DNA from: Nitrospirota bacterium
GTDB taxonomy: Bacteria > JACPQY01
NCBI GenBank assembly: GCA_016180645.1
Contig: JACPAV010000002.1
Location: 300,628-364,627, forward strand
Direction of reading: 5' to 3'
DNA: 64,000 bases
In this document: in pieces, positions 9,178 to 29,862 of the stretch
How the letters are laid out: each line of letters starts with the position of its first letter
Position numbering within the stretch: position 1 is the first letter of the stretch
Translations under genes and position numbers: made by a program
Notes under the pieces: generated by a model
What the model saw: the letters and a program-made list of their open reading frames with translations, nothing else
Databases searched by the model: none
What the model was told of the DNA's origin: nothing

Positions 9178-9933
9178 TTAGAAGAATGGGGCGGAATCGA
9201 GCGATGATCGGCTTGTCGGTGGATTTAGCCGGTACTGTTTTGCGACCGATTGAACGGCCTCGAGGTACCAGTCGGGTGCTAAGGGACTAACTAACACCTT
9301 CTCTATCAACAAATTTAGTTCGACCTGAACGAGCGTACCCTGGTCTGGCGGAACTGCCTCAAAGTCATACACAACCATACGGGGAGGTCGAGCCGACTTA
9401 CTTCTCTTATATTTCAATGGCCAGTCGTCGGTTAGAATTGCCCGCAACTCACGTTCATGCTCGAATGATTTTCTTTTGTATAGGAATGGAGCGATGTACA
9501 TGTCTTCAGGAATGGGCTGAGTCGCATAGTCGACATACGCAACCTTCCCACACAAAATACTTTCATGCAGCAACCTGCGTAATCGCCCGAATGTAGATTG
9601 AATGGCTATCGCCTTGCCTGAATCCGAATAGAGGCGCCACATTGCCTCTGACTCACCATCGTTTATATGCCAGCAGCTCACCTTGGTCCACTGGCGAATC
9701 GACTCTCGAAAAAGTGATTGAACTTCTCGAATCTCCTTTGGAGTTCTTGACTTGGAATTGCGGTTGCTCTTATTTGCTATCGGCAACGAGCCTTCGTGCG
9801 CATCCGCCAACGTCGAAACTCGTGAGAAATATAAGCCCCCCTTGGCCAACATGGATACAAATTTGGCGAAATCCATGTAACGCCAGATCCTGACCTTGGG
9901 ATTTCCAGGCTCCCGGATATTGGGATGGATCAT
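9178..9933 (-). CDS. DUF2971-family protein
   Basis: The product is 251 residues from the ATG at 9933 (MIHPNIREPGNPKVRIWRYM). The family pattern is present: YFSRVSTLADAHEG, SCWHIN, ESEAMWRLYSDSGKAIAIQS, GKVAYVDYA and KRKSFEHERELRAIL. An upstream start at 9969 would lie inside the repeat. DUF2971 proteins have no settled function and are often found in accessory or defence regions. The gene is bracketed by direct copies of the palindromic repeat (9077-9120 and 9941-9996). Confidence 0.7.
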   Translation of the reverse strand: MIHPNIREPGNPKVRIWRYMDFAKFVSMLAKGGLYFSRVSTLADAHEGSLPIANKSNRNSKSRTPKEIREVQSLFRESIRQWTKVSCWHINDGESEAMWRLYSDSGKAIAIQSTFGRLRRLLHESILCGKVAYVDYATQPIPEDMYIAPFLYKRKSFEHERELRAILTDDWPLKYKRSKSARPPRMVVYDFEAVPPDQGTLVQVELNLLIEKVLVSPLAPDWYLEAVQSVAKQYRLNPPTSRSSLDSAPFF

Positions 9934-9940
9934 CTTCTTT

Positions 9941-9996
9941 CGATCTGGGGGCATCATACCTATTTTCATGAATTGAGTAAGGTGTCCCCCGATTTC
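9941..9996. repeat. Palindromic REP-like repeat, upstream side of the DUF2971 gene
   Basis: The arms GGGGGCATCATAC and GTAAGGTGTCCCCC flank a short spacer. It has the same orientation as the copy at 9077, so the DUF2971 gene lies between direct copies. A run of GATTTCCCC units follows up to about 10010. Confidence 0.7.
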
Positions 9997-10050
9997 CCCG
10001 ATTTCCCCAATTTCGAAAGGACGGGGGTAAGCTCCCTTTCCATCAGCCGC

Positions 10051-10968
10051 TCAAAGAATCTCGTGGATGCGAAGGTAGATGTTGCCAGTTTGCGACGCCT
10101 CTCTGCGCTTTCTCAGGAGAAGCTGAATGAGATCAATGCGCCCTTCCAGAACCGCCATCAGATCGCTGCCGTCTACAAGCAGCATCATCCGGCGGCCGGA
10201 CGAGTGAGCCCTTACGCCGTCCTCCGAGAAACCATTGATCGAGAGGAAGAACCCCAGGGTGTTGTCGAGCTTACGGGCCAGCTTCCCGGCAAGAACATCC
10301 AGGTCTGCCGCACCGATAGCCTCCTGCTGCCACTTGCCCTCGAATAGGTAATCCGTAGCGTCGAAGGTGAAGGCCCCGTCGATCTGCTCTCCGACGATCT
10401 TGAAAGACGCGCGGGGGTCCAGATCAAAGAGTTCAAACAGCTCGCGAATGATCTTCTCCAAGCGGTAGCCGCGCTGCTGCGGCTCTTGGGAGTTCAAGAG
10501 GCTGAAGTATTCCTTTGTCAGATCCTCCAGCTTGGACCGGACGGCTGTCGTCCGGAGCATCTCCTCATGCGCTTTCCGCCGTCGCTCCTCCATCCGCTTC
10601 TGCTCGTCAAACAGAGCTTCGTGGGCTTCTGTCAGTTTCCGAAGCGCCCGTACGGACGCACGAGCTGCGGCAGCCTTCTCCTTTCCGCCCTCAAGACGCT
10701 CCAGATGCGAGAAGTCGTCGACTCTCGCGACCTCTGCCATCAACCTGAGGATGTCCGCCTGGTATTCATCCTGCCGGCGCTCAAGAAAGCCAATCAACTC
10801 GCTGACGATGTTCCTCTTGTAGTCACCCCAATTTAGACGGCTCAGCAAGGCCGGGTTGGTGACCGTGGTCGTCAGGAAGCTCCTGAGATCGCCCTTGTAC
10901 CAGTAGAGATTGGTCAGAGCATCTTTGAGAGCGACGATCGCGGCTGACGCGATCTTCTTGGTCGACAT
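10051..10968 (-). CDS. PD-(D/E)XK restriction-endonuclease-like protein with helical N-terminal domain
   Basis: The product is 305 residues. Residues 1-95 form a helical domain (KDALTNLYWYKGDLRSFL, then NWGDYKRNIVSELIGFLERR), 100-160 a charged coiled coil, and 165-300 a nuclease-like domain. The likely catalytic set is E171/E176, D197 in GEQIDGAF and E210-x-K212 in YLFEGKWQQ. Restriction-endonuclease-like (Mrr/RE_Mrr-type) proteins have this order. It is a single gene with no methylase beside it, suggesting a type IV or abortive-infection-style effector; this is inference. The dndCDE island is 11 kb away. Confidence 0.65.
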   Translation of the reverse strand: MSTKKIASAAIVALKDALTNLYWYKGDLRSFLTTTVTNPALLSRLNWGDYKRNIVSELIGFLERRQDEYQADILRLMAEVARVDDFSHLERLEGGKEKAAAARASVRALRKLTEAHEALFDEQKRMEERRRKAHEEMLRTTAVRSKLEDLTKEYFSLLNSQEPQQRGYRLEKIIRELFELFDLDPRASFKIVGEQIDGAFTFDATDYLFEGKWQQEAIGAADLDVLAGKLARKLDNTLGFFLSINGFSEDGVRAHSSGRRMMLLVDGSDLMAVLEGRIDLIQLLLRKRREASQTGNIYLRIHEIL

Positions 10969-11265: not shown

Positions 11266-12330
11266 ATGAAAGGTCTCATCCTCAGCGGCGGGAAGGGCAC
11301 GCGGCTCCGCCCGATGACGTACACGAGCGCGAAGCAACTCCTCCCCGTTGCCAATAAGCCGATCATCTTCTATGGAATTGAAGCTCTCCGCGAAGCGGGA
11401 ATCGTAGACATCGGAATCATTGTCGGAGAAACCAAGAAGGAAATCGTCGAAGCGGTGGGCGACGGCTCGCGATGGGGCGTGTCGATCACGTACATCGAGC
11501 AGGACGCCCCCCTCGGACTGGCCCACGCGGTCAAGACGGCCCGAGACTATCTCAAGAAAGATCGTTTCGTCATGTATCTCGGCGACAACCTCCTCCTCGA
11601 AGGCATCAAGAAGTGGGCCGACCTCTACAGCCAGGATAATGCTCATTCTCACATTCTGCTCGTGAAGGTGCCAAACCCGTCCTCCTTTGGAGTGGCCGAG
11701 GTGAAGGATGGGCGTGTGGTGAAGCTCGTCGAGAAACCGAAGCAGCCGAAGAGCGATCTCGCTCTGGTCGGGGTTTATTTCTTCGATCACCACGTGTTTG
11801 AGGCCGTGGATCAACTGAAACCCTCGGCGCGTGGCGAACTGGAAATTACCGATGCCATCCAGTGGCTCGTCGATCACGATTTCAAGGTCGTCCCCCACCA
11901 GATCACGGGGTGGTGGAAGGACACCGGCAAGCTGGAGGATATCCTGGAGGCAAACCGGATGGTGCTCGACAATCTCACGATGCGCGTGGAGGGAAAAGTC
12001 AGCGAGTCGTCACGCGTGGAATTCAAAGTTGTGATCGAGCAGGGCGCCGAAATCGTCGGCAGCGTCGTCCGCGGGCCCGCGATTATCGGCCGCGGGGCAC
12101 GGGTGGAGGGATCCTACGTCGGGCCTTTCACGGCCATCGGGGAGAATGCGGTGATCCAGAACAGCGAAGTGGAGCACAGCATCATCCTGGGAGGCAGCCG
12201 GATTCTCGATCTGGAAGGGCGCATTGAAGACAGCCTGGTGGGAAAGGACAGCGTGATCACACGGGCGAAGAAGTTCCCGCGGGTGCACCGGTTCATGATC
12301 GGAGACAGTTCCCAGGTCGAAATCGTTTGA
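11266..12330 (+). CDS. rfbA: Glucose-1-phosphate thymidylyltransferase, long form
   Basis: It makes dTDP-glucose from dTTP and glucose-1-phosphate, the first step of dTDP-sugar synthesis. The nucleotide-binding motif LSGGKGTRLRPMT is at residues 5-17 and YLGDNLL marks the metal-binding aspartate region. Residues about 245-354 form a left-handed beta-helix tail (IIGRGARVEGSYVGPFTAIG), which defines the long form of 350-355 residues. rfbB starts 7 nt after its stop, so the two are one operon. Confidence 0.95.
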   Translation: MKGLILSGGKGTRLRPMTYTSAKQLLPVANKPIIFYGIEALREAGIVDIGIIVGETKKEIVEAVGDGSRWGVSITYIEQDAPLGLAHAVKTARDYLKKDRFVMYLGDNLLLEGIKKWADLYSQDNAHSHILLVKVPNPSSFGVAEVKDGRVVKLVEKPKQPKSDLALVGVYFFDHHVFEAVDQLKPSARGELEITDAIQWLVDHDFKVVPHQITGWWKDTGKLEDILEANRMVLDNLTMRVEGKVSESSRVEFKVVIEQGAEIVGSVVRGPAIIGRGARVEGSYVGPFTAIGENAVIQNSEVEHSIILGGSRILDLEGRIEDSLVGKDSVITRAKKFPRVHRFMIGDSSQVEIV

Positions 12331-12337
12331 GGCGGAG

Positions 12338-13363
12338 ATGAAGCTGCTCGTCACAGGCGGCGCGGGTTTCATCGGGTCGGCGTTCATCCGGCTGGTTCTC
12401 CGCGAGAGAGCCGCATGGAGCGTCGTTAACGTCGACACGCTCACCTACGCGGGTAATCTGGAGAATCTTGCCGAGGTCGAAACCAACTCCCGGTACCAAT
12501 TCGTCAAGGCGGACATCACGGACGGCAAGGCGATCCAGGAGGTCCTATCGAACGGATTGGATGCCATTGTCCATTTTGCCGCCGAAAGTCACGTAGATCG
12601 GAGCATTCAGGACTCCCATCCGTTCATCGCCACCAACGTCCTCGGCACACAAATCCTCCTCGATGCGGCCCGCGCGCGCAAGGTTCCCCGTTTTCTCCAC
12701 ATATCCACCGATGAAGTCTACGGCTCACTCGGGGAGACAGGCCACTTCACCGAGGACAGCCCCTTGCAACCCAACAGCCCTTACGCGGCCACAAAAGCCG
12801 CCGCCGACCTTCTTGTGAGAGCCGCCTTCGTCACCCACAAGATGGGCGCTCTGATCACGCGCTCGTCCAACAACTACGGCCCCTACCAGTTTCCCGAGAA
12901 GCTCATCCCGCTCATGATCACGAATGCGATGGACGATCAGCCGCTTCCCGTCTACGGCAAGGGCGAGAACGTGCGGGATTGGACGTATGTGGACGACAAC
13001 GCGAGGGGGATCCTCACGGTTCTGGAGAAGGGCAAGGACGGCGAGGTGTACAACATCGGCGCCGGGGAGGAGCGGAGAAATCTCGAAATCTGTGAAATCA
13101 TCCTAAAGGAACTTGGGAAGTCTCGATCGCTCCTTCGTTTTGTGACGGATCGGCCGGGGCACGACTGGCGGTACGCGCTAAAGAGCGACAAGGTCCGTGC
13201 ACTCGGCTGGTCGCCCGCTCTCGATCTGCCGCGCGGCCTCCATCAAACCGTGGAATGGTACAAAGCCCAACGCACATGGTGGGAGCGCGTCAAGTCCGGC
13301 GAATACAAGAACTACTACGAACAGGCGTACGGTCGCAGGCTCCAGGCCGCTCGCGCTCGCTGA
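12338..13363 (+). CDS. rfbB: dTDP-glucose 4,6-dehydratase
   Basis: The enzyme turns dTDP-glucose into dTDP-4-keto-6-deoxyglucose. It is 341 residues with the Rossmann motif TGGAGFIGSAF near the start, HISTDEVYGSLGE with the catalytic Thr-Asp-Glu set and YAATKAAAD with the YxxxK pair. It is placed directly after rfbA and 6 nt before uvrC. The rest of the rhamnose pathway (rfbC, rfbD) is not in the window. Confidence 0.95.
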   Translation: MKLLVTGGAGFIGSAFIRLVLRERAAWSVVNVDTLTYAGNLENLAEVETNSRYQFVKADITDGKAIQEVLSNGLDAIVHFAAESHVDRSIQDSHPFIATNVLGTQILLDAARARKVPRFLHISTDEVYGSLGETGHFTEDSPLQPNSPYAATKAAADLLVRAAFVTHKMGALITRSSNNYGPYQFPEKLIPLMITNAMDDQPLPVYGKGENVRDWTYVDDNARGILTVLEKGKDGEVYNIGAGEERRNLEICEIILKELGKSRSLLRFVTDRPGHDWRYALKSDKVRALGWSPALDLPRGLHQTVEWYKAQRTWWERVKSGEYKNYYEQAYGRRLQAARAR

Positions 13364-19125: not shown

Positions 19126-20256
19126 ATGATTTACCTTGACCACAACGCCACAACGCCCGTGTTGCCGGAGGTACTTGAGACGATGATGCCCTACTTCACC
19201 AAGGAATGGGGCAACCCCTCCAGCAGCTACAAATTCGGATCCAAATTGAAAACCGTGATCGAGCAGGCGCGGGAGCAGGTAGCTCAACTGATAGGCGCGC
19301 ACCCAATGGAAATCATCTTCACCTCGTGCGCCACGGAGAGCAACAACGCGGCGATCCATGCAGTGCTCAAAGCCAATCCGGGCAAGCGGCACATCATCAC
19401 GTCATCTGTGGAACATTCGTCGGTGCTCAACTACTGCAAGGCACTGGAGAAGGATGGTTATCGCGTCACGTATCTGCCGGTGGATCGCGAAGGGCTGATG
19501 AAGCCGGCGGATTTGGAGACTGCGATCACCGGCGAAACGGCCATCGTCTCATTGATGTGGGCGAACAACGAGACGGGGGTGCTGTATCCGGTGAAAGAAA
19601 TCGCGGAGATTTGCCGGTCCCGCGGGGTATTCTTCCACTGTGATGCGGTGCAGGCAGCGGGCAAAGTGGAAATCGACGCACGAAAAGCGCCCTTAGACTT
19701 CCTTTCACTGACAGGCCACAAATTTCATGCGCCGAAGGGCATCGGGGCGTTGTACATCCGCCGAAAGGCGCCGTTTTCACCTCTCATCGTTGGTGGGCAT
19801 CAGGAGCGACGTCTGCGCGGGGGAACCGAGAGCGTCCCGTTGATCGTTGGGATGGGCAAGGCGGCGGAGTTGGTGGGCAAGAGTCTGCCCGCCTACGACA
19901 AGAGAGTCGGGCCGTTGCGTGATGCGTTGGAGGCCGGGATCCTTGGGTCAATTCCTTACGGGGAATTGAATGGGCATAAGACCTTCCGTTTGGCGAATAC
20001 CACCAACCTCACATTCAGAGGAATCGAATCGGAGGCTTTGCTTTTGCTGCTCGATCAGGAGGGAATATGTGCCTCATCGGGATCGGCCTGCCTTGCCGGG
20101 TCGGACGAACCTTCGCACGTCGTCAAGGCCATGAAGCCCGATTCCTCCGCTTCCCGTCAGATGATCCGATTTTCGCTGGCCCCTTCGAATACGTCCGATG
20201 AGGTATCGGCAGCCGTCGGGGCCGTGCTCCACGCTGTCACCGATTTGCGGGGCTGA
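19126..20256 (+). CDS. Cysteine desulfurase (NifS/IscS family)
   Basis: This PLP enzyme takes sulfur from cysteine as a persulfide for Fe-S clusters, tRNA thiolation or DNA phosphorothioation. It is 376 residues: MIYLDHNATTPV, GHKFHAPKG with the PLP lysine K199, RGGTESVPLIVGMG, and the persulfide cysteine C322 in SSGSACLAG. The long loop around SSGSACxxG is that of the NifS/IscS group. No IscU, suf or thiI gene lies beside it. It is followed 10 nt later by the DUF6883/DUF4926 pair. Because the dnd operon lacks dndA, this enzyme is a candidate sulfur donor for DndC; that is inference. Confidence 0.92.
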   Translation: MIYLDHNATTPVLPEVLETMMPYFTKEWGNPSSSYKFGSKLKTVIEQAREQVAQLIGAHPMEIIFTSCATESNNAAIHAVLKANPGKRHIITSSVEHSSVLNYCKALEKDGYRVTYLPVDREGLMKPADLETAITGETAIVSLMWANNETGVLYPVKEIAEICRSRGVFFHCDAVQAAGKVEIDARKAPLDFLSLTGHKFHAPKGIGALYIRRKAPFSPLIVGGHQERRLRGGTESVPLIVGMGKAAELVGKSLPAYDKRVGPLRDALEAGILGSIPYGELNGHKTFRLANTTNLTFRGIESEALLLLLDQEGICASSGSACLAGSDEPSHVVKAMKPDSSASRQMIRFSLAPSNTSDEVSAAVGAVLHAVTDLRG

Positions 20257-21852: not shown

Positions 21853-22851
21853 TCAGGGAAATAGCACCTCCGAAAAGGATGGGAAGTATCGATACACCTC
21901 CGCATATCTCTTGACATCCGATTCAGGCACGCCGGGCACGCGCAGTTTTCCTGAGGATATCTTGGGCAACTGCGAGTTAAGATGACGAATTTCTTTCGGC
22001 GTCAGACAGGGCGCCTTTATGTGGCAAGGATCGGAACTGGCGCGAATGAACGGCAACGTATCAAAGTTGCACTCTAGGAATTTCTGCTCCTCTTCCGCAC
22101 GGAAAAAGATTCCACCGACCGTAACCATCTGGGCTCCATCCTTGTAGCGGAAGTGAAATAGTTGCCGATATTGGACCTTTTCATTCAGCGGAAGCATTGA
22201 ATTTCGCAAAGATATTTGCTCGGAAATTACGTTATCAATGACCTTGCGAAACACGCTAGCAAGCCCTTGACCACGCAAGTCAGTTCCAGAAGTGCCAGCC
22301 GGCAGTTGCCCCCCCAAAAGCTCCTTGGCGATACGCAGGCGATACTCGTCGAGATCGAACGTTTTGCCAGTTTCCTTTTCATACGTTTCGCGATCCTCCT
22401 TGGCTGGCTCGGCGTCTGGGTGTGCGTTTACGGTGACTACCAACGAACTGCCGCTGGCCGCACGCAGACAGACGGTTGCGATATCCCCCAATATTCCAGT
22501 ATCAAGACGATTCTCGTAGTCCAACCATGCGATGGTGCGACGCCGCCAGTCTATTGTAGGCAGAACCTCACCAGAGTTTGCAAACTTCAATTGTATGCAC
22601 CGGTAAGGGCGGTTGAATCGGAAGCAGGCTCTCGACGACGTTTCTTTTTCAATACTCAGCATGTTGGTTATGCCGAGTTCGCGATGGAGGAGTTGGAAAT
22701 CGCTGAAGTAGATGGAGCCAAATCCCACGTAGCGGTATTCCTGAATCCGCTGGAAGGGATGCAGACGTTCGAACGCCGCACACAGCATCCTCCGTTCAAT
22801 CGCCTTTCCCGGACGCAGTGCATAGTTGATGATTCGGAAGCTGTCCGACAC
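21853..22851 (-). CDS. Methyltransferase-like protein, last gene of the dnd operon
   Basis: This is a 332-residue protein with a GTG start that overlaps the GHKL stop by one base. The segment YRYVGFGSIYFSDFQLLHRE, then LGITNMLSIEKE, resembles the first and second strands of a Rossmann-type methyltransferase (a VGFGS loop and an acidic strand end), but no clear catalytic motif such as NPPY is present. Further parts (TIAWLDYENRLD, GDIATVCLR, SSLVVTVNAHPD) fit later strands. I recall similar proteins annotated as O-methyltransferase-like. The role is unknown; its position suggests a dnd accessory or restriction function. It is visibly less GC-rich than dndC/dndD. Confidence 0.6.
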   Translation of the reverse strand: MSDSFRIINYALRPGKAIERRMLCAAFERLHPFQRIQEYRYVGFGSIYFSDFQLLHRELGITNMLSIEKETSSRACFRFNRPYRCIQLKFANSGEVLPTIDWRRRTIAWLDYENRLDTGILGDIATVCLRAASGSSLVVTVNAHPDAEPAKEDRETYEKETGKTFDLDEYRLRIAKELLGGQLPAGTSGTDLRGQGLASVFRKVIDNVISEQISLRNSMLPLNEKVQYRQLFHFRYKDGAQMVTVGGIFFRAEEEQKFLECNFDTLPFIRASSDPCHIKAPCLTPKEIRHLNSQLPKISSGKLRVPGVPESDVKRYAEVYRYFPSFSEVLFP

Positions 22852-24215
22852 TATTCTTCCCCTTCGGCTTCGTAGCGCATGAAATATTCGAACGTTTTCT
22901 CCCCAACGCCAGTGAAGGTTTTCGATTTAAGAATCAGCTTGGCTCTCTCAACCTCACTCGCAGGCTTCCAGTATTGAATTCTACACATTCTCGGCCCGGC
23001 AGCGGCGGGAGCCATTGACGGAGCTACGAAATTACCCCCACGCTTAATCATGTTGACCTGTTTCGAGTCGGCGGTCTCGATTGCATTTTCGAGGGGATGT
23101 TGGCCCTCACCGGCAGTCTTTTCCTTGACAAGATTAGTTAGAAAAGTCAGTACCGGCCTGGTCATCTCGATCATCTCGCGCTGGACAGCCTTGTAGACGG
23201 GGGAGTCGGCGTCCACTCCGGTTTTCGTCGTTGTCCAAGGCAGCAAAGAACCATCATCAGAGTCGAGATAAGCGTAGCCACGAAAATAGGCAAAATCAGG
23301 ATGGTATGCCCGCATGTTGTGACGATTCCCCCAGACTGTTGCGTCTGATTGGTCGGCGCGCAATATTAGGCGTCCGTTGCAGAAGACATACCAGCCGCCA
23401 TCGTGGAAGCTACGCTCCGCAACGCCAGCATATAGCCTTACTCGCACCGGCGGGCCCGGCTTACCTACGAGTATTTTGCTCGGATAAGACTTCTCCACAT
23501 AGCCGGGCTGCAACATCTTCGAAACAAAAAGCTCCTGCGGATCATGCTTGATCGGCAGACCGTTCAAGGTGATGGCAAGCTCGCGATCCAAAGTTAAGGG
23601 GTGAGCTTGGCTCATCTCCTCTGCAAGCCTGCTCTTAAAGTTATCCAATGCGAAAGTATCCGCAACATTCGCCAGGAGCCGGTCGACCTCGATGCGCGTG
23701 CCGGTGTCCTTCTCCGGAACGTGCAAACCAGTCTCTAGTTCACTGAAAGTGAAGTGCCACTCCTCGGGAGATTGGGCATCAGCCATCCATTGATCCACAT
23801 CGACATCCACCGTGAATCGCGCCTCCCTTGTTGTCGAGCGCACGACAAAATGGCGTCCAAGCCTAAAGAAGGTCCGCTTCATGCCTACTCCGAACTGTCC
23901 CATTGAGCCAGGGGTGCCCTCAGTTTCTTCTGGCCGCCCAAAGCGAAATGCGTAGCCGCGTGCGACATCAACGGGAATTCCGCCACAGTTATCGGCAATG
24001 AGAAAATGCCTAGCATCCAGTTTCATTTCCACCCTTAGCCCGCCATAGTTGCCAGCGGGACGAAGTCTCCGTGCTCCGTCCACCGAATTATCTACGAGAT
24101 CAAGAATGGCTCGCGTTAGCGGGATGTCCCTTGTGAGCATGTGAATGAAGAATTCCTTTGTTGGAGACGCATTGATGAGCTTCTGCCCACCTTGGGAGGA
24201 TGAAGTAGGTGCCAT
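22851..24215 (-). CDS. GHKL (Hsp90/MORC-like) ATPase of the dnd operon
   Basis: The product is 454 residues. The ATP-binding motifs are an N-box at residues 38-47 (DLVDNSVDGA), G1 at 75-79 (IADNCGGIP) and G2 at 106-113 (GQFGVGMKR). This is the GHKL fold of Hsp90, MutL and MORC. The start was set at the ATG 24215, which has GGGGGGAGG 8 nt upstream; the frame is open further but would overlap the previous gene. It starts 4 nt after the HerA stop and its own stop overlaps the next gene. MORC/GHKL ATPases occur in other defence systems; here it probably acts with the HerA and methyltransferase-like neighbours. Confidence 0.8.
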   Translation of the reverse strand: MAPTSSSQGGQKLINASPTKEFFIHMLTRDIPLTRAILDLVDNSVDGARRLRPAGNYGGLRVEMKLDARHFLIADNCGGIPVDVARGYAFRFGRPEETEGTPGSMGQFGVGMKRTFFRLGRHFVVRSTTREARFTVDVDVDQWMADAQSPEEWHFTFSELETGLHVPEKDTGTRIEVDRLLANVADTFALDNFKSRLAEEMSQAHPLTLDRELAITLNGLPIKHDPQELFVSKMLQPGYVEKSYPSKILVGKPGPPVRVRLYAGVAERSFHDGGWYVFCNGRLILRADQSDATVWGNRHNMRAYHPDFAYFRGYAYLDSDDGSLLPWTTTKTGVDADSPVYKAVQREMIEMTRPVLTFLTNLVKEKTAGEGQHPLENAIETADSKQVNMIKRGGNFVAPSMAPAAAGPRMCRIQYWKPASEVERAKLILKSKTFTGVGEKTFEYFMRYEAEGEE

Positions 24216-24219
24216 GCGT

Positions 24220-25701
24220 CTACCTCCCCCCATCACGCCAGAATTGGCGGGCTGGGCCGGTGATGAGCTTGCCTTGCAAGCGCAGAGCGGCTTCGGCTTT
24301 CGTGAGTTTCTGATGAACCACACCGCCGAGGATCATTCGTTGTTCGGCGTCTTTCAGCGTGTGCGGCGAGAAGTGGGCTCCGCATTCGGCCAACTCGGCG
24401 AAATTGGTATCGTTGGCGCCCGGCGTCAGGAATTTATCGGCGTCCTGCGAAGCCAGCCAGACGGGGAAGCCCCATGATCGACCCTGCCTCGCGAGCAGGC
24501 TCAGCAGGCCGGCCTTGCTCTCCTTCGGCAGAATCAGATGCGCTTCATCCACAAATAGCACCATCTTGAGAGGCTGGATGTCATTCTTCACGGCCAGTTG
24601 CCGGCTCAATTTCTTGATGAGGAAGTTCAGAATGAGGGCGGCCGACAATGCCTTCGTATCGTTGTCCGTCCCGAACTCCTTGAAATCGATGACCAGGGAA
24701 CCATTCAACCATTCCTCCGGGGTGATCGCGGTCCGGGCGGAGGCGAACAGATTGAACCGCTCGATCTTTTGAACGATGCGCTGTTCAACACCCTCCGTGC
24801 CGCTGTTCACGAGCTCCGCCGACAAGGACGCGAAATCCGGTTCGGCGAGTCGCTGGTAGCAGTCGCTGAGATTGCCCTCCTGTCTAGCGCCGAGTTGCGG
24901 CGCGAAGCATCGGATAAGGCCCGCCATCTCGTAGGCAACCTGGGCATTCTGTGTTGGGTTCTGATGGCGGTAGAGTGGGTTGATCGGCAGGCTCTGCTGG
25001 ATCAGGCGGACATACCGCGCGCCGGTCTGTTCCAGGAAGCGCCTGCGATTCTCCGTCTGCCTTGCGTCCTTGGGATTGTCTTCAAGCTCGCCCTTCATGT
25101 CGAAAAACACGAAACGAACGCCACCATTCGCCGCTTGCGCCAGGAGGTCGAGCGCAAGCTGGCTCTTGCCGCTGCCGGGTTGACCGGAAATCACCAGCAA
25201 GCCGTTGTTCGTGCCCGGACCGTTTACCGACCATTCCGGACCGTCCGTCAATACTTTCAATTTCACTTCGGTCTCGACCACCGGCATCGGTCGAGCGACG
25301 GGCTCCGCGCCGGGAAGCCCAGACTCGCCACTCGCCAAACGCAAGAGAGACGCCACGAACCGGGCCTGATCGTTCCCCGATTCCGACCATATCTGCCCCA
25401 AGCGTTGGCAGCCAAACTCAAAGTGACGACGAAACTCCTGCCGGTACCCGGCTTCGTCGAGGGTCCGTCCGGCCCGGTGGTTCAATGCGGCGCGGACCAG
25501 ATCCCGGAGATCATCGCCGACAACCTGCTCGTCATTCAGCGTCACGCCTTTGGAGTCCTTGGGTTTGTACTCGGTGGGCACGCCCTGCCCCAGAGCGAGG
25601 AAGAGCGCCGCGCGTCCGACAATCGCCTGATTCCGCGCGCCGACGCGGGCAAAGACGTTCTCGATGAACTCGTGAGCTTCGCCGCTGGTCTCGAATTTCA
25701 T
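24220..25701 (-). CDS. DndE-like domain fused to a HerA/FtsK-type ATPase
   Basis: The product is 493 residues from the ATG at 25701 (ATGA overlap with the preceding gene). Residues 1-105 match the DndE pattern: GARNQAIVGRAALFLALGQG, then VTLNDEQVVGDDL and FRRHFEFGCQRLGQI, like the GxxxNxxxRxA and HxxxGxxxL marks of DndE. Residues 160-493 are a HerA/DUF87-type pump ATPase: Walker A GQPGSGKS at 173-180, FFDMKGELED, Walker B MVLFVDEAH at 380-388, and the ending KLITGPARQFWRDGG. DndE binds nicked DNA and is essential for phosphorothioation; HerA-type ATPases occur in the DndH/DptH restriction factor. A fusion would join modification and motor activity in one chain. Confidence 0.75.
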   Translation of the reverse strand: MKFETSGEAHEFIENVFARVGARNQAIVGRAALFLALGQGVPTEYKPKDSKGVTLNDEQVVGDDLRDLVRAALNHRAGRTLDEAGYRQEFRRHFEFGCQRLGQIWSESGNDQARFVASLLRLASGESGLPGAEPVARPMPVVETEVKLKVLTDGPEWSVNGPGTNNGLLVISGQPGSGKSQLALDLLAQAANGGVRFVFFDMKGELEDNPKDARQTENRRRFLEQTGARYVRLIQQSLPINPLYRHQNPTQNAQVAYEMAGLIRCFAPQLGARQEGNLSDCYQRLAEPDFASLSAELVNSGTEGVEQRIVQKIERFNLFASARTAITPEEWLNGSLVIDFKEFGTDNDTKALSAALILNFLIKKLSRQLAVKNDIQPLKMVLFVDEAHLILPKESKAGLLSLLARQGRSWGFPVWLASQDADKFLTPGANDTNFAELAECGAHFSPHTLKDAEQRMILGGVVHQKLTKAEAALRLQGKLITGPARQFWRDGGR

Positions 25702-25964
25702 GGGCCTTTTCCTTCCCGAACAAGCCGCTGCCCTGTGGGAGAGGCCCAAAAAGCTGCGAGAACGCCGTCGCGGAATTCTTCGTAAACCCCTCGATCAGCC
25801 TCAAGCATCTTGGCTGCCTTTCGCGCAGCGCGGCGAAACTCAGCCGCAGTTTGCCAGTCCAGCGTACTGTGAAATATCTCGTTGCGCATGATCTCTTCAA
25901 TCATCCCTGCGTCCACCGGACTGCAACCCGTAGCTTCGATGATGTCTTCAGCGTAGCCGCTCAT
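25698..25964 (-). CDS. Small conserved protein in the dnd operon
   Basis: The product is 88 residues, MSGYAEDIIEATGCSPVDAG, then MIEEIMRNEIFHSTLDWQTA. The EEIMRxxIFHSTLDWQ block is one I recall from small proteins on plasmids and accessory islands; no function is known to me. It is all helical by look. It lies between dndD (18 nt gap) and the dndE-herA gene (4-nt overlap), so it is made with them. It is not a DndE, since that domain is on the next gene. Confidence 0.7.
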   Translation of the reverse strand: MSGYAEDIIEATGCSPVDAGMIEEIMRNEIFHSTLDWQTAAEFRRAARKAAKMLEADRGVYEEFRDGVLAAFWASPTGQRLVREGKGP

Positions 25965-25982
25965 GGTATTCCTCCTTCGTTG

Positions 25983-28046
25983 TTACAGGTCCTTTCCGAA
26001 GTAGTCGCTTGTGATGCGCACTTCGTAGTTCGGGCTGTCGGGTCTGCCATGCGGGTGCAACGTGTAGGCACGCGCAAACCGGCCACGGGCGCGGTCAAAC
26101 AGCGGTCCATCCGGATCAATCTCAGCATTCGTGCTGAGGATGATGGACTGGTGGCCGCTGAGGTAAAGCCGGTCGAGCACGTTGGCGCGGACTTCTTTGT
26201 CGAGGCGGGCCAGTGGCGTGTCCACAACCAGCGGCGGAACGAGCTTGGCCAGACGACGCAGGGCTTCGTAGAACGCCAGCATTCGCACCTGTCGCTGACC
26301 GGCGGACGTGTTCGTTTCCTCCCAGGTAACTTTCCTGCCATCCCGGCGCACGAGCCAGCATTGCCAATGGCCGTCAAAGTCCATGCCCTCGAACTCCCGC
26401 TCCCGCTCGGTAATTTCCACCCACAACTTGCCGACTTCCTCGGAGAGCTTCCGCCGCATCAGAATTGCGGCTCGGCTGCGAATCTCGCCGGCGGCCTCGC
26501 GGTAGCGGGTCGCCATCGCCGCCAAACTTTCGCCCCGCTTGGCACGTTCGGCAATTTCCGACTGCGTCGTCTCCTGGCGTTTCAGATCCACAAGCTCAAC
26601 CTCAAGACGCGCGATTTCGGCATCAATATCCTTCAGTCGTTTGGAGATTTGATCGCGGCGAGTGATGAGGCCGCCCCGCTTTTCGTGGAGTTCCACGCCT
26701 CGTTTGTACGCCGCCGTGTTTTGTTGCATCTGTCTCAGCTTCTGGTTCAACTCGCGTAGCTCAACGTCCATTCGGTCGATCTCCGCACACCTGTCCGATA
26801 GGTCGCGAATATCGCTCTGGTTCAGGGCAAGCTGTCGGCGAATCTGCGCACTCGTGTCGTTGCGGTCGGCAATGTAGATGCGGTCGGGCATCCCTTGCGG
26901 TGGTGGATGGAACAGGCTGTGGAGAGCGTCTTCCAATCGCTTCATGTAGAAGGATTCGACATCAGGTTGGAGCTCGAATTCCTTGGGAACACCACCAAAC
27001 ACGTCCTGCTTTACCTGCGGAATCTTCGGCTCGACCGTGGACTTGGCGCTTTCCCACTCGCGACGACGTTCCTCGGATAGCAAAGCGCCATGCAATTCCT
27101 TGCAGTAGACCCCAAGCAACGAGACCGGTAGAGCCAACTCCCAAGCTTCTGTGAGTCTGGCTTCGAGTTTGGCTTTGGCCCCTGTAAGTTCGCCGCGGCG
27201 TTCTTGAGCTCTCTGCAACTCATCGGGGTCGACTGCTCCAAGCGTTTTCAAGTCGTCTTCGACTTCAACCAGTTCGGCTTCGACTTCTTTCAAGTCGCGG
27301 TCAAGGGTTTCGCGTTCAAGATGTCTGACCTTCAAGTTGCCCTCCACAGTCCTCACCTTGCTGTTCAACTCGTTGAGGGTCGTCAATGGGTCAGGGCCGC
27401 CGGTGGAATTGAACACGCGTGGGATCTTCGAGCTGATCAGTTGACGGAGATCGTTTTCCAGTTCGGCATAGGCCTGAAGGCCAAGGATTCGACTCACGCC
27501 TTCAACGATGTCCTGCTGTCCCAAGTTGATGGCCTGGCTGCGCTCAGCATCGAAAAAGAAGAACCGCGCCAGATGGCGCGGCAGGAAAGCGTCCCGAAGT
27601 TTGTGTATCTCTTGTTCGTCTTGGATGGTGCCCGGCTTGTCGGACCGTGTGGCATGATGCTCCCAGACTGGCGCCGAGTTGGAGCGGAACCGCACTTGGC
27701 GAAGGATCTCCACTTTCCGACTGCCCACTTTGTCATCGCGGAGACTCACCACCGCCTTGAGACGCACTAAGTCTTTACCTTCAGACAGTGCATGCCGATT
27801 GAGCGACTTCTCGAAGGTGAACCGCGTCGCATCTGACCCAGTCTCCACCTTCTTCAAGTCGCCGACGCCGCTCTCGCCGACCACCGCAAGATATAGGGCG
27901 CGCAGCAGGTGAGTTTTTCCGGCACCATTCTTTCCGCCCACGATAACGCCACACTTGCCCTCAAGACTTCGGAAGTCAACGGTGTGCTCGCCGTAGAATG
28001 GCCCAAAGTTCTCCAGCGTTAGTGAGTCGATATGGACTTCCGCCAT
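25983..28046 (-). CDS. dndD: DNA sulfur modification protein DndD (SMC-like ATPase)
   Basis: The product is 687 residues. The N-terminal ATPase half has Walker A GGKNGAGKT at residues 37-45 after LENFGPFYGEHTVDF. A long central coiled coil follows (about 210-520). The C-terminal half has the signature-like TSAGQRQVRMLAFYEALRRL and Walker B PPLVVDTPLARLD, then HQSIILSTNAEID. This RecF/SMC-like layout at 650-700 residues is that of DndD, the ATPase thought to nick or open DNA for sulfur insertion. It starts 2 nt after dndC. Confidence 0.9.
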   Translation of the reverse strand: MAEVHIDSLTLENFGPFYGEHTVDFRSLEGKCGVIVGGKNGAGKTHLLRALYLAVVGESGVGDLKKVETGSDATRFTFEKSLNRHALSEGKDLVRLKAVVSLRDDKVGSRKVEILRQVRFRSNSAPVWEHHATRSDKPGTIQDEQEIHKLRDAFLPRHLARFFFFDAERSQAINLGQQDIVEGVSRILGLQAYAELENDLRQLISSKIPRVFNSTGGPDPLTTLNELNSKVRTVEGNLKVRHLERETLDRDLKEVEAELVEVEDDLKTLGAVDPDELQRAQERRGELTGAKAKLEARLTEAWELALPVSLLGVYCKELHGALLSEERRREWESAKSTVEPKIPQVKQDVFGGVPKEFELQPDVESFYMKRLEDALHSLFHPPPQGMPDRIYIADRNDTSAQIRRQLALNQSDIRDLSDRCAEIDRMDVELRELNQKLRQMQQNTAAYKRGVELHEKRGGLITRRDQISKRLKDIDAEIARLEVELVDLKRQETTQSEIAERAKRGESLAAMATRYREAAGEIRSRAAILMRRKLSEEVGKLWVEITEREREFEGMDFDGHWQCWLVRRDGRKVTWEETNTSAGQRQVRMLAFYEALRRLAKLVPPLVVDTPLARLDKEVRANVLDRLYLSGHQSIILSTNAEIDPDGPLFDRARGRFARAYTLHPHGRPDSPNYEVRITSDYFGKDL

Positions 28047-28048
28047 GA

Positions 28049-29347
28049 TTAGGCCTTCTTCTCTGCCTCCTGTTTCGCCAAATCGTCTTTCAAGATGAAG
28101 AGCAGATCGTCCGGGAGGCCGTGGGCGCGGTGGCTTTCGCTGTATTCCTCCACCTTGGCAAGCATCCGACGGAGCGTGTCGGTGTTGATCCCCTTTTCCC
28201 GGGCGATTTCGTCCTCCAGCTCCCGAAGTTTGTTGAGTTCCTTCAGATCCGTGCTCATCATGACACCTCGCTGTTTGTTGAGGATACGGGCGACGCCCCG
28301 GCCGTCATCGGGATCGCGCGCGGCCTTCCACATTTGTTGGATCAAGAGGAGCTCCTCGGAGGCTATAATGGGCAAACGGGTTTCCTCCTGCAACGCGAGC
28401 AATCGGGCCAGCAACTCACGCCGGGCCTCAATGTGCAAAGGCCCCGGGCCCTTGTCGCCATTCATCCGTTTCATGTCGCGCTTGCCGTTGGCGGGGTCGC
28501 GGTAGAACTGTAGGGTTTCTCGAAATTCGATGAGCTTCTCCATCCGCTCGTCGCCGGCGGCCAGCAGCCCCTCACTGGCTTTGTCGCGATCCACCACGGT
28601 GCAGGTCCAGCAGCCGAAGCGGGAGTTGCCGCAGCTTGGAGTGCTGGTGTCGATCTGAATGGGACATTCACCGTTGGAGGCGCTGGAGTAGAGTTTGTAT
28701 AGTGCGCGGTTGTCGCCACCCCAGGGGTTCGGCGTTTGGAGGAGATAGGCCCAAACTTCCTCGGTGGTCAGGTATTCGATTGGATTGGAGACCCACACGC
28801 GCGGCAGGTCCGGGTGACGGCGCAAGCCGTTGCGGGTCTCGATACCCGCCATTGTTTGCGCCCGAGTTGCGCTTTCCTCCCGCCGCGCCCCCAAATGCAG
28901 GATGGCATCGCCCCAGTGTCCTATCCGTTTCTTTACAAAGTCATTTACCGGATCTATCTTCATCCGCTGAGTACACCAACGAAAGGTGCGATTGGGAGGG
29001 GGGTATCCACGCCCGATGATGTTGACCCAGAACGATTGTTCGGCCGGGGGTTTCAGGAGGTGGGCTTCGAAGTTCAACTCGTTCTGGCTGGAGAACTTCC
29101 TCATTTTGTCGAGCGTGCCCTCTACCATCCCGACGATGGCCGGGATTTCCACGCGCGTGTCCGTACAGAGGAGATTGATCGGCTTCTTGCGATTTTCCCT
29201 GGGGATGGACGCGACCGCGTCGAAGAGGAGCGAGGCCAGCATGGTGCTGTCCTTCCCCCCGCTGAATCCGACGAGCCACGGACGAGGATCCTCGATGTAG
29301 AGGCGGCTGAGGGATTCGCGAATTTCTTGATATCCGCCGGTCACCAC
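28049..29347 (-). CDS. dndC: DNA phosphorothioation protein DndC (PAPS-reductase family)
   Basis: The product is 432 residues. The PP-loop SGGKDS is at residues 29-34 (VGFSGGKDSTMLASLL). Four cysteines fit the 4Fe-4S ligands of DndC: C125 (RWCTQRMK), C239, C246 and C249 (SCGNSRFGCWTC). The adenylating and iron-sulfur parts activate DNA for sulfur transfer from a cysteine desulfurase. It is the first gene of the operon. The start is GTG at 29347. No dndB repressor gene precedes it. Confidence 0.92.
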   Translation of the reverse strand: MVTGGYQEIRESLSRLYIEDPRPWLVGFSGGKDSTMLASLLFDAVASIPRENRKKPINLLCTDTRVEIPAIVGMVEGTLDKMRKFSSQNELNFEAHLLKPPAEQSFWVNIIGRGYPPPNRTFRWCTQRMKIDPVNDFVKKRIGHWGDAILHLGARREESATRAQTMAGIETRNGLRRHPDLPRVWVSNPIEYLTTEEVWAYLLQTPNPWGGDNRALYKLYSSASNGECPIQIDTSTPSCGNSRFGCWTCTVVDRDKASEGLLAAGDERMEKLIEFRETLQFYRDPANGKRDMKRMNGDKGPGPLHIEARRELLARLLALQEETRLPIIASEELLLIQQMWKAARDPDDGRGVARILNKQRGVMMSTDLKELNKLRELEDEIAREKGINTDTLRRMLAKVEEYSESHRAHGLPDDLLFILKDDLAKQEAEKKA

Positions 29348-29382: not shown

Positions 29383-29427
29383 GCCGGGCCTGCCACAGGG
29401 GAGGAGGTCGGCAAAGTCAGGGAAGAA

Positions 29428-29695
29428 TCGTCATTCCCGCGGAGGCGGGAATCCAGAGCTTCTTGATTTCACTGGACCCCCGCCTTCGCGGGGGTGACGG
29501 ATAGGGTCGGGATTCCATTCTCATGATTCCCGATTGTTCATGGGCAGTTGGCATGGAACCTGCCGTGACCGTGGCCACAGGGGTACGTTAGGGGTTGCGA
29601 GGAAAGAACCTACTCAATTTTCCATCTTCTCGTCATGCCCGCGGAGGCGGGCCTCCAGTCTGGATTCCCGTCTTCACGGGAATGACGGAGCGAGG
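29428..29695. repeat. Two inverted CCCGC-type interspersed repeats
   Basis: Palindromic segments around 29430-29455 (ATTCCCGCGGAGGCGGGAAT), 29475-29500 (CCCCGCCTTCGCGGGGGTG) and 29633-29690 (two arms beginning ATGCCCGCGGAGGCGGG and GATTCCCGTCTTCACGGG) are of the widespread GTCATTCCCGC type. The rest of the 29348-29862 gap has no supported gene. Confidence 0.6.
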
Positions 29696-29862
29696 GACTT
29701 GTTCACTTTGTTTCCACGCGACCCCTTGCCTCCGTCTCACCCCCTTTTCCCGGCTTGGCATGTTGGCTTGGAAACGAGTTGTCAGAGTTGAGTGGGGCGT
29801 AGGGAATTCAGCATCCAACGGCGTCTCGCTTACGCCGCCGACTATGCTGACCGTGCGTGGAG

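Follow-up and report, generated by a model that had tools for sequence, protein, structure and literature searches.

Which genes of a DNA phosphorothioation locus make the sulfur mark, and which would put it to use when the familiar restriction genes are missing? The question is raised by a cluster of six minus-strand genes in a Nitrospirota bacterium (JACPQY01; assembly GCA_016180645.1, contig JACPAV010000002.1), within the 64,000-nucleotide (nt) stretch from position 300,628 to 364,627 that we analysed as a whole and call the window. The cluster encodes the phosphorothioation proteins DndC and DndD, the product of a small open reading frame (ORF), a DndE-HerA fusion, a GHKL ATPase and MT35, a protein of the Methyltransf_35 family. 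Sequence comparison assigns these proteins to their families, defines a conserved unit, and reveals both the coupling of GHKL with MT35 and an exchange of the pair's marking partner, which serves either sulfur marking or cytosine-C5 methylation. We read the locus as a transferable six-gene phosphorothioation island, in which NifS/DndA, encoded nearby, DndC, DndD and DndE-HerA would make the mark and GHKL-MT35 would form a separate, obligate defence arm that reads the mark and acts without nucleolysis; our confidence in this reading is evenly balanced.

The conserved unit and its probable marking core

With a GHKL alignment as query, a scan of 84,980 species genomes yielded 321 relatives, of which the best 80 loci were kept. 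In seven close relatives among them (L027-L033), which represent at least four phyla and are named as Verrucomicrobia, Acidobacteria/Blastocatellia, Deltaproteobacteria and Nitrospiria, the genes for DndC, DndD, DndE-HerA, GHKL and MT35 occur in identical order at 48-81% protein identity, and a NifS/DndA gene is conserved beside the operon in 7/7. An all-against-all comparison of the ORFs of the window and these seven loci recovered exactly six families present in all eight (DndA, DndC, DndD, DndE-HerA, GHKL and MT35); beyond these, the sole shared ORF was one of 80 amino acids (aa) in two loci. Divergence between the window and its relatives was concentrated at third codon positions, which indicates protein-level constraint on the tested genes. 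Loci of like layout also occur at greater distance, in Bacteroidota, Simkania and Methylobacter. Beside its operon, one of the close relatives, L027, has a NifS gene and then a detached piece of NifS C-terminus (9800-10096 and 11367-12518), which suggests duplication or disruption.

A sequence-only reading of the window had listed six closely spaced or overlapping minus-strand genes between 21853 and 29347. All six are present (Table 1), and with homologue-supported starts the gaps are 2 nt (dndC/dndD), 18 nt (dndD/small ORF), -4 nt (small ORF/dndE-herA), 4 nt (dndE-herA/GHKL) and -1 nt (GHKL/MT35). The possibility that the genes never recur together, which that reading had left standing, is removed by the five main genes in the same order in seven genomes. 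Its list was incomplete, having overlooked the conserved NifS/DndA gene, which lies 1.6 kb from the MT35 end of the operon. The small ORF, which it had counted as a member of the system, is real but has a homologue in only 2/7 close relatives (L029 and L030) and was therefore ruled out as a core component; it matched no family in Pfam, NCBIfam or PADLOC.

DndC scored 374.8 bits against TIGR03183 (equivalog cut-off 290.4), and its SGGKDS PP-loop and its RWCT and PSCGNSRFGCWTCT cysteines align with canonical DndC residues. The best PADLOC match of DndD was DndD, at 203 bits over the full length, so that neither protein falls into the non-Dnd families that had been considered for them. Since its TIGR03185 score (162 bits) is under the cut-off of 246, we regard it as a divergent DndD; it carries the Walker A motif GKNGAGKT and an SAGQ signature, and no CxC hook was found in its sequence. 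In the DndE-HerA fusion, residues 3-101 match PF08870 (29.0 bits, cut-off 25) and the ATPase part matches AAA_10 and HerA_C, with a weak match to the HerA-like YjgR. A plasmid search with DndE-HerA gave no match. The HerA part (24220-25701) also gave a 61-bit PADLOC match to mad8, of a methylation-associated defence system, which beats the other HerA models.

NifS/DndA matched the PADLOC DndA model at 482 bits and scored just under the NifS equivalog cut-off and also under that of DndA. It is 70-78% identical to the desulfurases adjoining the operon in L027-L033 and only 50% identical to the nearest paralogue of its own genome. Because it is closer to the relatives' copies than to this paralogue, we believe that the desulfurase travels with the island and is likely its DndA, the sulfur donor of the unit. 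The gene island probably puts sulfur into DNA. By analogy with established Dnd biochemistry, DndA, DndC, DndD and DndE would insert the sulfur into host DNA, and HerA may help the DndE complex to move along it.

HerA had first been grouped with GHKL and the methyltransferase, and DndE-HerA, GHKL and MT35 could form one restriction complex in which HerA translocates along DNA and the pair acts at a blocked site. Such a complex would be consistent with the gene order, which is fixed in L027-L033 and occurs divergently in L072, L089, L094, L096, L097 and L101, and with the HerA/FtsK ATPase of DndH, a restriction subunit of phosphorothioate (PT) systems described in the main text of a recent survey (PMC10853773). 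However, HerA forms a single protein with DndE, a modification subunit, and the parts separate in both directions: DndD and DndE-HerA form stand-alone pairs without DndC, GHKL or MT35 (L013-L016), and GHKL-MT35 occurs with stand-alone DndE and with a cytosine methylase. We therefore find a single complex unlikely. The DndE-HerA fusion beside a DndD-type ATPase has already been published, in HerA/FtsK clade 3 of the same survey (Rakesh, Aravind & Krishnan 2024, PMC10853773), whose main text cites Krishnan 2020 for the DndE-HerA subset. Since the combination is described and stand-alone DndD/DndE-HerA pairs are seen, we assign HerA to the modification core. Near two of these pairs (G035 and G183) lies an ORF of 64-82 aa whose similarity to the DndC model is confined to the C-terminal end of that model.

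The start of dndE-herA was set to the ATG at 25701 (the listed ORF extends to 25749), and that of the GHKL gene is most likely the ATG at 24215 (the ORF is open to 24323). A comparison of the regions upstream of dndC found no obviously conserved regulatory stretch. Repetitive extragenic palindromic (REP)-like repeats of the TCATTCCCGCGAAGGCGGGAATCC type lie at 29420-29700 of the window, between dndC and the enolase gene. About 2 kb to the left of the window, a 603-aa frame holds a second match to the phosphoadenosine phosphosulfate (PAPS)-reductase domain (G000:C2:298547-298744).

Table 1. Genes of the island, with positions counted from the first nucleotide of the window
Feature	Position	Strand	Assigned by
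dndC, PP-loop sulfurtransferase of DNA phosphorothioation, 432 aa	28049..29347	-	TIGR03183
dndD, ABC/SMC-like ATPase, 687 aa	25983..28046	-	PADLOC DndD, full length
Small ORF, 88 aa, outside the conserved unit	25698..25964	-	no family match
dndE-herA fusion (DndE DNA-binding domain and HerA/FtsK-type translocase ATPase), 493 aa	24220..25701	-	PF08870, AAA_10, HerA_C
MORC-type GHKL ATPase with S5 domain, 454 aa	22851..24215	-	PF13589, MORC motif, AlphaFold2 model
MT35, Methyltransf_35, predicted class I S-adenosylmethionine methyltransferase, 332 aa	21853..22851	-	PF20553, AlphaFold2 model
nifS/dndA, cysteine desulfurase, convergent to the operon	19126..20256	+	PADLOC DndA

The GHKL-MT35 pair and its marking partners

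GHKL and MT35 occurred together in 80/80 genome loci, with stop and start no more than 30 nt apart, and mostly overlapping, in 69 of 70 cases. GHKL also adjoins MT35 on both MT35-carrying plasmids and in 70 of 74 viral contigs. When PF20553 alone was searched in an independent sample of 386 genomes, three strong matches came from genomes other than the window's own; each adjoined GHKL and had a DNA methylase alongside. GHKL and MT35 are an inseparable module, distinct from the marking core. On psymA of Sinorhizobium meliloti KH46, the MT35 gene is split by an insert of ~2.8 kb with transposase-sized ORFs (L009:8205-13350). On a Microvirga terrae plasmid (L010:1229-18981), GHKL-MT35 is inserted in a DISARM locus between an MmeI-like enzyme and drmA. 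As this was the only DISARM locus, and neither DrmA nor DrmB was found in the 80 genome loci, we rejected the pair as a DISARM component.

The GHKL protein matches PF13589 (HATPase_c_3). Its AlphaFold2 model (predicted local distance difference test score, pLDDT, 91.9) had MORC2-DNA as its best PDB match (E 2.3e-14), followed by the Hsp90 family, MORC3 and SMCHD1, and its sequence profile also finds MORC4 and HtpG. The ATP boxes and the S5 lysine (K331) are invariant or nearly so. The motif GhXhhpXXRhl, which unites prokaryotic and eukaryotic MORCs according to Iyer 2008 (PMC2292703), reads GWYVFCNGRLI in the window; it stands at the S5 position in 62 of 65 aligned rows compared to 0.25% in shuffles, the rows being homologous and not 62 independent tests. 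MT35 scored 344 bits against PF20553 (cut-off 27), and its AlphaFold2 model (pLDDT 93.9) has a class I S-adenosylmethionine (SAM)-methyltransferase fold, with matches that include EgtD, Trm1, TrmM and MnmM, none of them close. Residues G43, E68, W109 and D111 are invariant in 75 homologues; G43 and E68 answer to the glycine motif and the acidic residue that bind the cofactor in the Rossmann fold of this class. A PDB sequence search with the MT35 profile gave no match, and its class therefore rests on Pfam and the predicted fold. On these models, the GHKL protein is a MORC-type ATPase and MT35 is a predicted class I SAM-methyltransferase.

The pair is found with either of two marking enzymes. 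DndC was present in 31 of the 80 loci and a cytosine-C5 methylase (Dcm) in 38 (37 by tblastn, one more by hidden Markov model), and no locus had both. Among the 47 loci with at least 20 kb the counts were 22 and 23, again with none in common, and in the remaining two (L068 and L074) the gene immediately upstream, which overlaps GHKL, encodes another kind of PP-loop protein, from the PAPS-reductase family. DndC or Dcm was therefore present in 45/47 of these loci compared to 1/40 control 20-kb stretches from 13 genomes (Fisher p ~4e-21, which is indicative only, because the control genomes are few and not taxon-matched). With loci treated as independent, the mutual exclusion of DndC and Dcm has p ~1e-12. 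The Dnd/Dcm label has to change at least five times along the GHKL tree (by a quick method, with support from the Shimodaira-Hasegawa-like approximate likelihood ratio test only). Each of the 31 loci with DndC has DndD as well, together with DndE or DndE-HerA. Phosphorothioation of the backbone and cytosine methylation of the base are chemically unrelated marks, normally served by different restriction machinery. That one pair has swapped between them at least five times indicates that the arm has no direct sense of the chemistry, or senses it via an adaptor.

The PAPS-reductase-family PP-loop protein overlaps the start of GHKL-MT35 in three loci of Clostridia (L068:8968-12264, L074:8992-12264 and L087:299-3574). 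It carries SGGSDSD and GCAGCPF and has weak BrxP/SspD matches and no significant similarity to DndC; neither DndD nor DndE was found near its genes in L068 and L074. With GHKL-MT35 it may make up a sulfur-marking system of three genes, which would be more unusual than that of the window.

A related cassette is present in 48 of 5,426 complete E. coli genomes. In the one inspected, E. coli 7/2 (L225:6283-9798), a P2-like prophage carries GHKL, MT35 and a convergent Dcm only, between the portal and replication genes. This portal/replication-side position of P2 is a hotspot where anti-phage systems have been found and tested (PMC9122126). The filamentous Pseudomonas phage PfAC20 also has GHKL, MT35 and Dcm (L226:280-3711), and GHKL-MT35 with a convergent Dcm is the commonest layout in viral contigs.

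Many Dcm-type loci are accompanied by Vsr-like endonucleases, and MutL is a GHKL ATPase, which would allow the pair to be a MutL/Vsr-type DNA-repair module for lesions that the mark gives rise to, rather than a defence device. We consider this highly improbable, since the DndC-type loci are without Vsr, most prophage forms lack it as well, and PT is not known as a cause of T:G mismatches.

What the pair may do with the mark

DndB (PF14072) is absent from the window genome, which is 97% complete, and is not in the conserved unit. DptF (TIGR03238), whose profile matched two positive controls, is absent from the window genome and its seven relatives. The absence of dndB and dndFGH noted in the sequence-only reading thus extends genome-wide for DndB and for DptF, the only member of the DndFGH (DptFGH) set that the genome-wide search took in. 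No nuclease was found among the conserved ORFs of the window and L027-L033, nor any other conserved ORF in their flanks, and the C-terminus of GHKL, examined as a possible hidden nuclease, is a helical region with no invariant nuclease-like motif. A superfamily II (SFII) helicase or restriction endonuclease was found neither among the island's conserved ORFs nor in the three-gene prophage form. The locus has no PbeA (an HKD-SF2 helicase) or other conserved flank gene and no SspB/C/D/E arrangement; the SspD match reached only 41 bits, and SspE was not searched genome-wide.

GHKL-MT35 alone accompanies both marks and is the sole non-marking part of the three-gene prophage form, which argues that the pair is the arm using the mark. 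Judging from this context, it would read the mark and act on DNA without it, or on the infected cell, in place of DndFGH. With no recognisable nuclease in either the island or the three-gene Dcm-GHKL-MT35 form, non-nucleolytic action seems most likely. From its fold and this lack of a nuclease, ATP-driven dimerisation of the MORC-type protein may clamp or compact unmarked DNA and thereby block replication or transcription. In the least certain step, MT35 may gate the clamp by sensing SAM or DNA, or it may methylate nucleic acid or protein at the site. Of the modification-plus-defence system proposed from the window alone, the general outline is strengthened, as a Dnd-type module recurs with GHKL and the methyltransferase as a unit and the pair has a defence-type placement in prophages. 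The three-part HerA-GHKL-methyltransferase arm did not survive, because HerA is fused to DndE, DndD and DndE-HerA occur alone, and GHKL-MT35 swaps partners.

Several observations weigh against GHKL-MT35 as the obligate mark-reading arm. The near-universal catalytic (general-base) glutamate of GHKL ATPases is aspartate in 61 of 65 rows, and hydrolysis could therefore be slow or altered. Foldseek template-modelling scores are modest (~0.5 for GHKL, <0.6 for MT35), so the fold reveals neither substrate nor action. Metagenome assemblies supply most of the relatives. Many Dnd-type loci have the pair beside another restriction arm (DptFGH, PbeA/CxC, GmrSD, HNH or PIN), often beside DndB. In larger Dnd loci the pair often comes right after a restriction gene, such as GmrSD (L047, L088), HNH (L081, L084), PIN (L060) or DptH (L048, L058). 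As restriction genes so often adjoin it, the pair may be an accessory and not an effector, and this keeps our confidence in the arm at an even balance.

The adjoining PT restriction genes would also suit a role of the pair in a second modification or maturation step, in which MT35 methylates DNA or the marked site, GHKL loads MT35, and a nuclease elsewhere restricts. MT35, a predicted SAM-methyltransferase with invariant cofactor residues, would fit this. Yet the prophage form consists only of Dcm, GHKL and MT35, in a defence hotspot, and where amino-DNA-methylases carry a DPPY-type motif MT35 has WLDY, even if not every DNA methylase needs DPPY. We think a second modification step rather improbable.

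The pair could instead regulate the marking enzymes or act as their safety device, as a functional stand-in for DndB that limits the toxicity of PT or 5-methylcytosine rather than acting on phages. It accompanies marking enzymes almost without exception, and DndB is missing from the window genome and the close unit. But other Dnd loci have the pair and DndB together, and a regulator alone would leave its carriage in a prophage defence hotspot unexplained; we regard this role as doubtful.

Relation to known systems and significance

The island resembles the Dnd systems DndABCDE-DndFGH (PMC10853773; TIGR03183/03185/03184) in its DndC equivalog, DndD, DndE domain, cysteine desulfurase and operon organisation, but it is without DndB and DptF, has DndE fused to HerA, and adds GHKL-MT35. 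It shares the DndE-HerA fusion beside a DndD-type ABC ATPase with the DndD-(DndE-HerA) subset described in the survey (Rakesh, Aravind & Krishnan 2024), whose main text makes no mention of MORC, GHKL, MutL, HATPase or O-methyltransferase. PbeABCD (CxC) and SspABCD-SspE are alike in joining a PT mark to an arm other than DndFGH, whereas the DndD of the island has no CxC motif, its sulfurtransferase is DndC-type, and the SspB/C/D/E arrangement is missing. PbeABCD is reported to act without degrading viral DNA, which the survey's authors dispute in its main text (PMC10853773).

On the side of the pair, the closest likeness is to the prokaryotic MORC/paraMORC restriction-modification operons (Iyer, Abhiman & Aravind 2008, PMC2292703), in which a GHKL and S5 ATPase with the GhXhhpXXRhl motif stands beside DNA methylases and Vsr nucleases. 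In the parts of that paper covered here, SFII helicases and endonucleases are the main companions given for these operons, and neither an inseparable SAM-methyltransferase partner nor a phosphorothioation partner is described. The two-gene HEF_HK/Response_reg_2 elements (PMC8011034) likewise place a HATPase_c_3 protein and a second protein beside cytosine methylases, but an identity with them was rejected, since the proteins of window, prophage and phage hit PF13589 and PF20553 rather than PF19191/PF19192. PADLOC 2.0.0 has no model for the GHKL or MT35 protein. Our searches of the open-access literature turned up no named system, and none of the papers found names PF20553 or links phosphorothioation to MORC/GHKL genes in such a combination. 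Dnd modification, the DndE-HerA fusion and MORCs in restriction-modification are already known; the combination and the exchangeable GHKL-MT35 pair are new.

A broader proposal, which we put forward only tentatively, is that GHKL-MT35 is a mark-agnostic, nuclease-free arm, in which a MORC-type clamp and a SAM-methyltransferase would silence or compact DNA lacking the resident mark. It could be plugged into phosphorothioate (DndACDE, possibly the lone PP-loop sulfurtransferase in Clostridia), 5-methylcytosine and other marks, and would parallel, in bacteria, the MORC silencing that DNA modification guides in eukaryotes.

For the Dnd family, the pair means that many loci classed as without a restriction arm may have one, and its three-gene prophage version is present in sequenced E. 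coli. If the reading is true, a minimal system would link bacterial MORC ATPases with DNA marking, and this would bear on the origin of eukaryotic MORC silencing.

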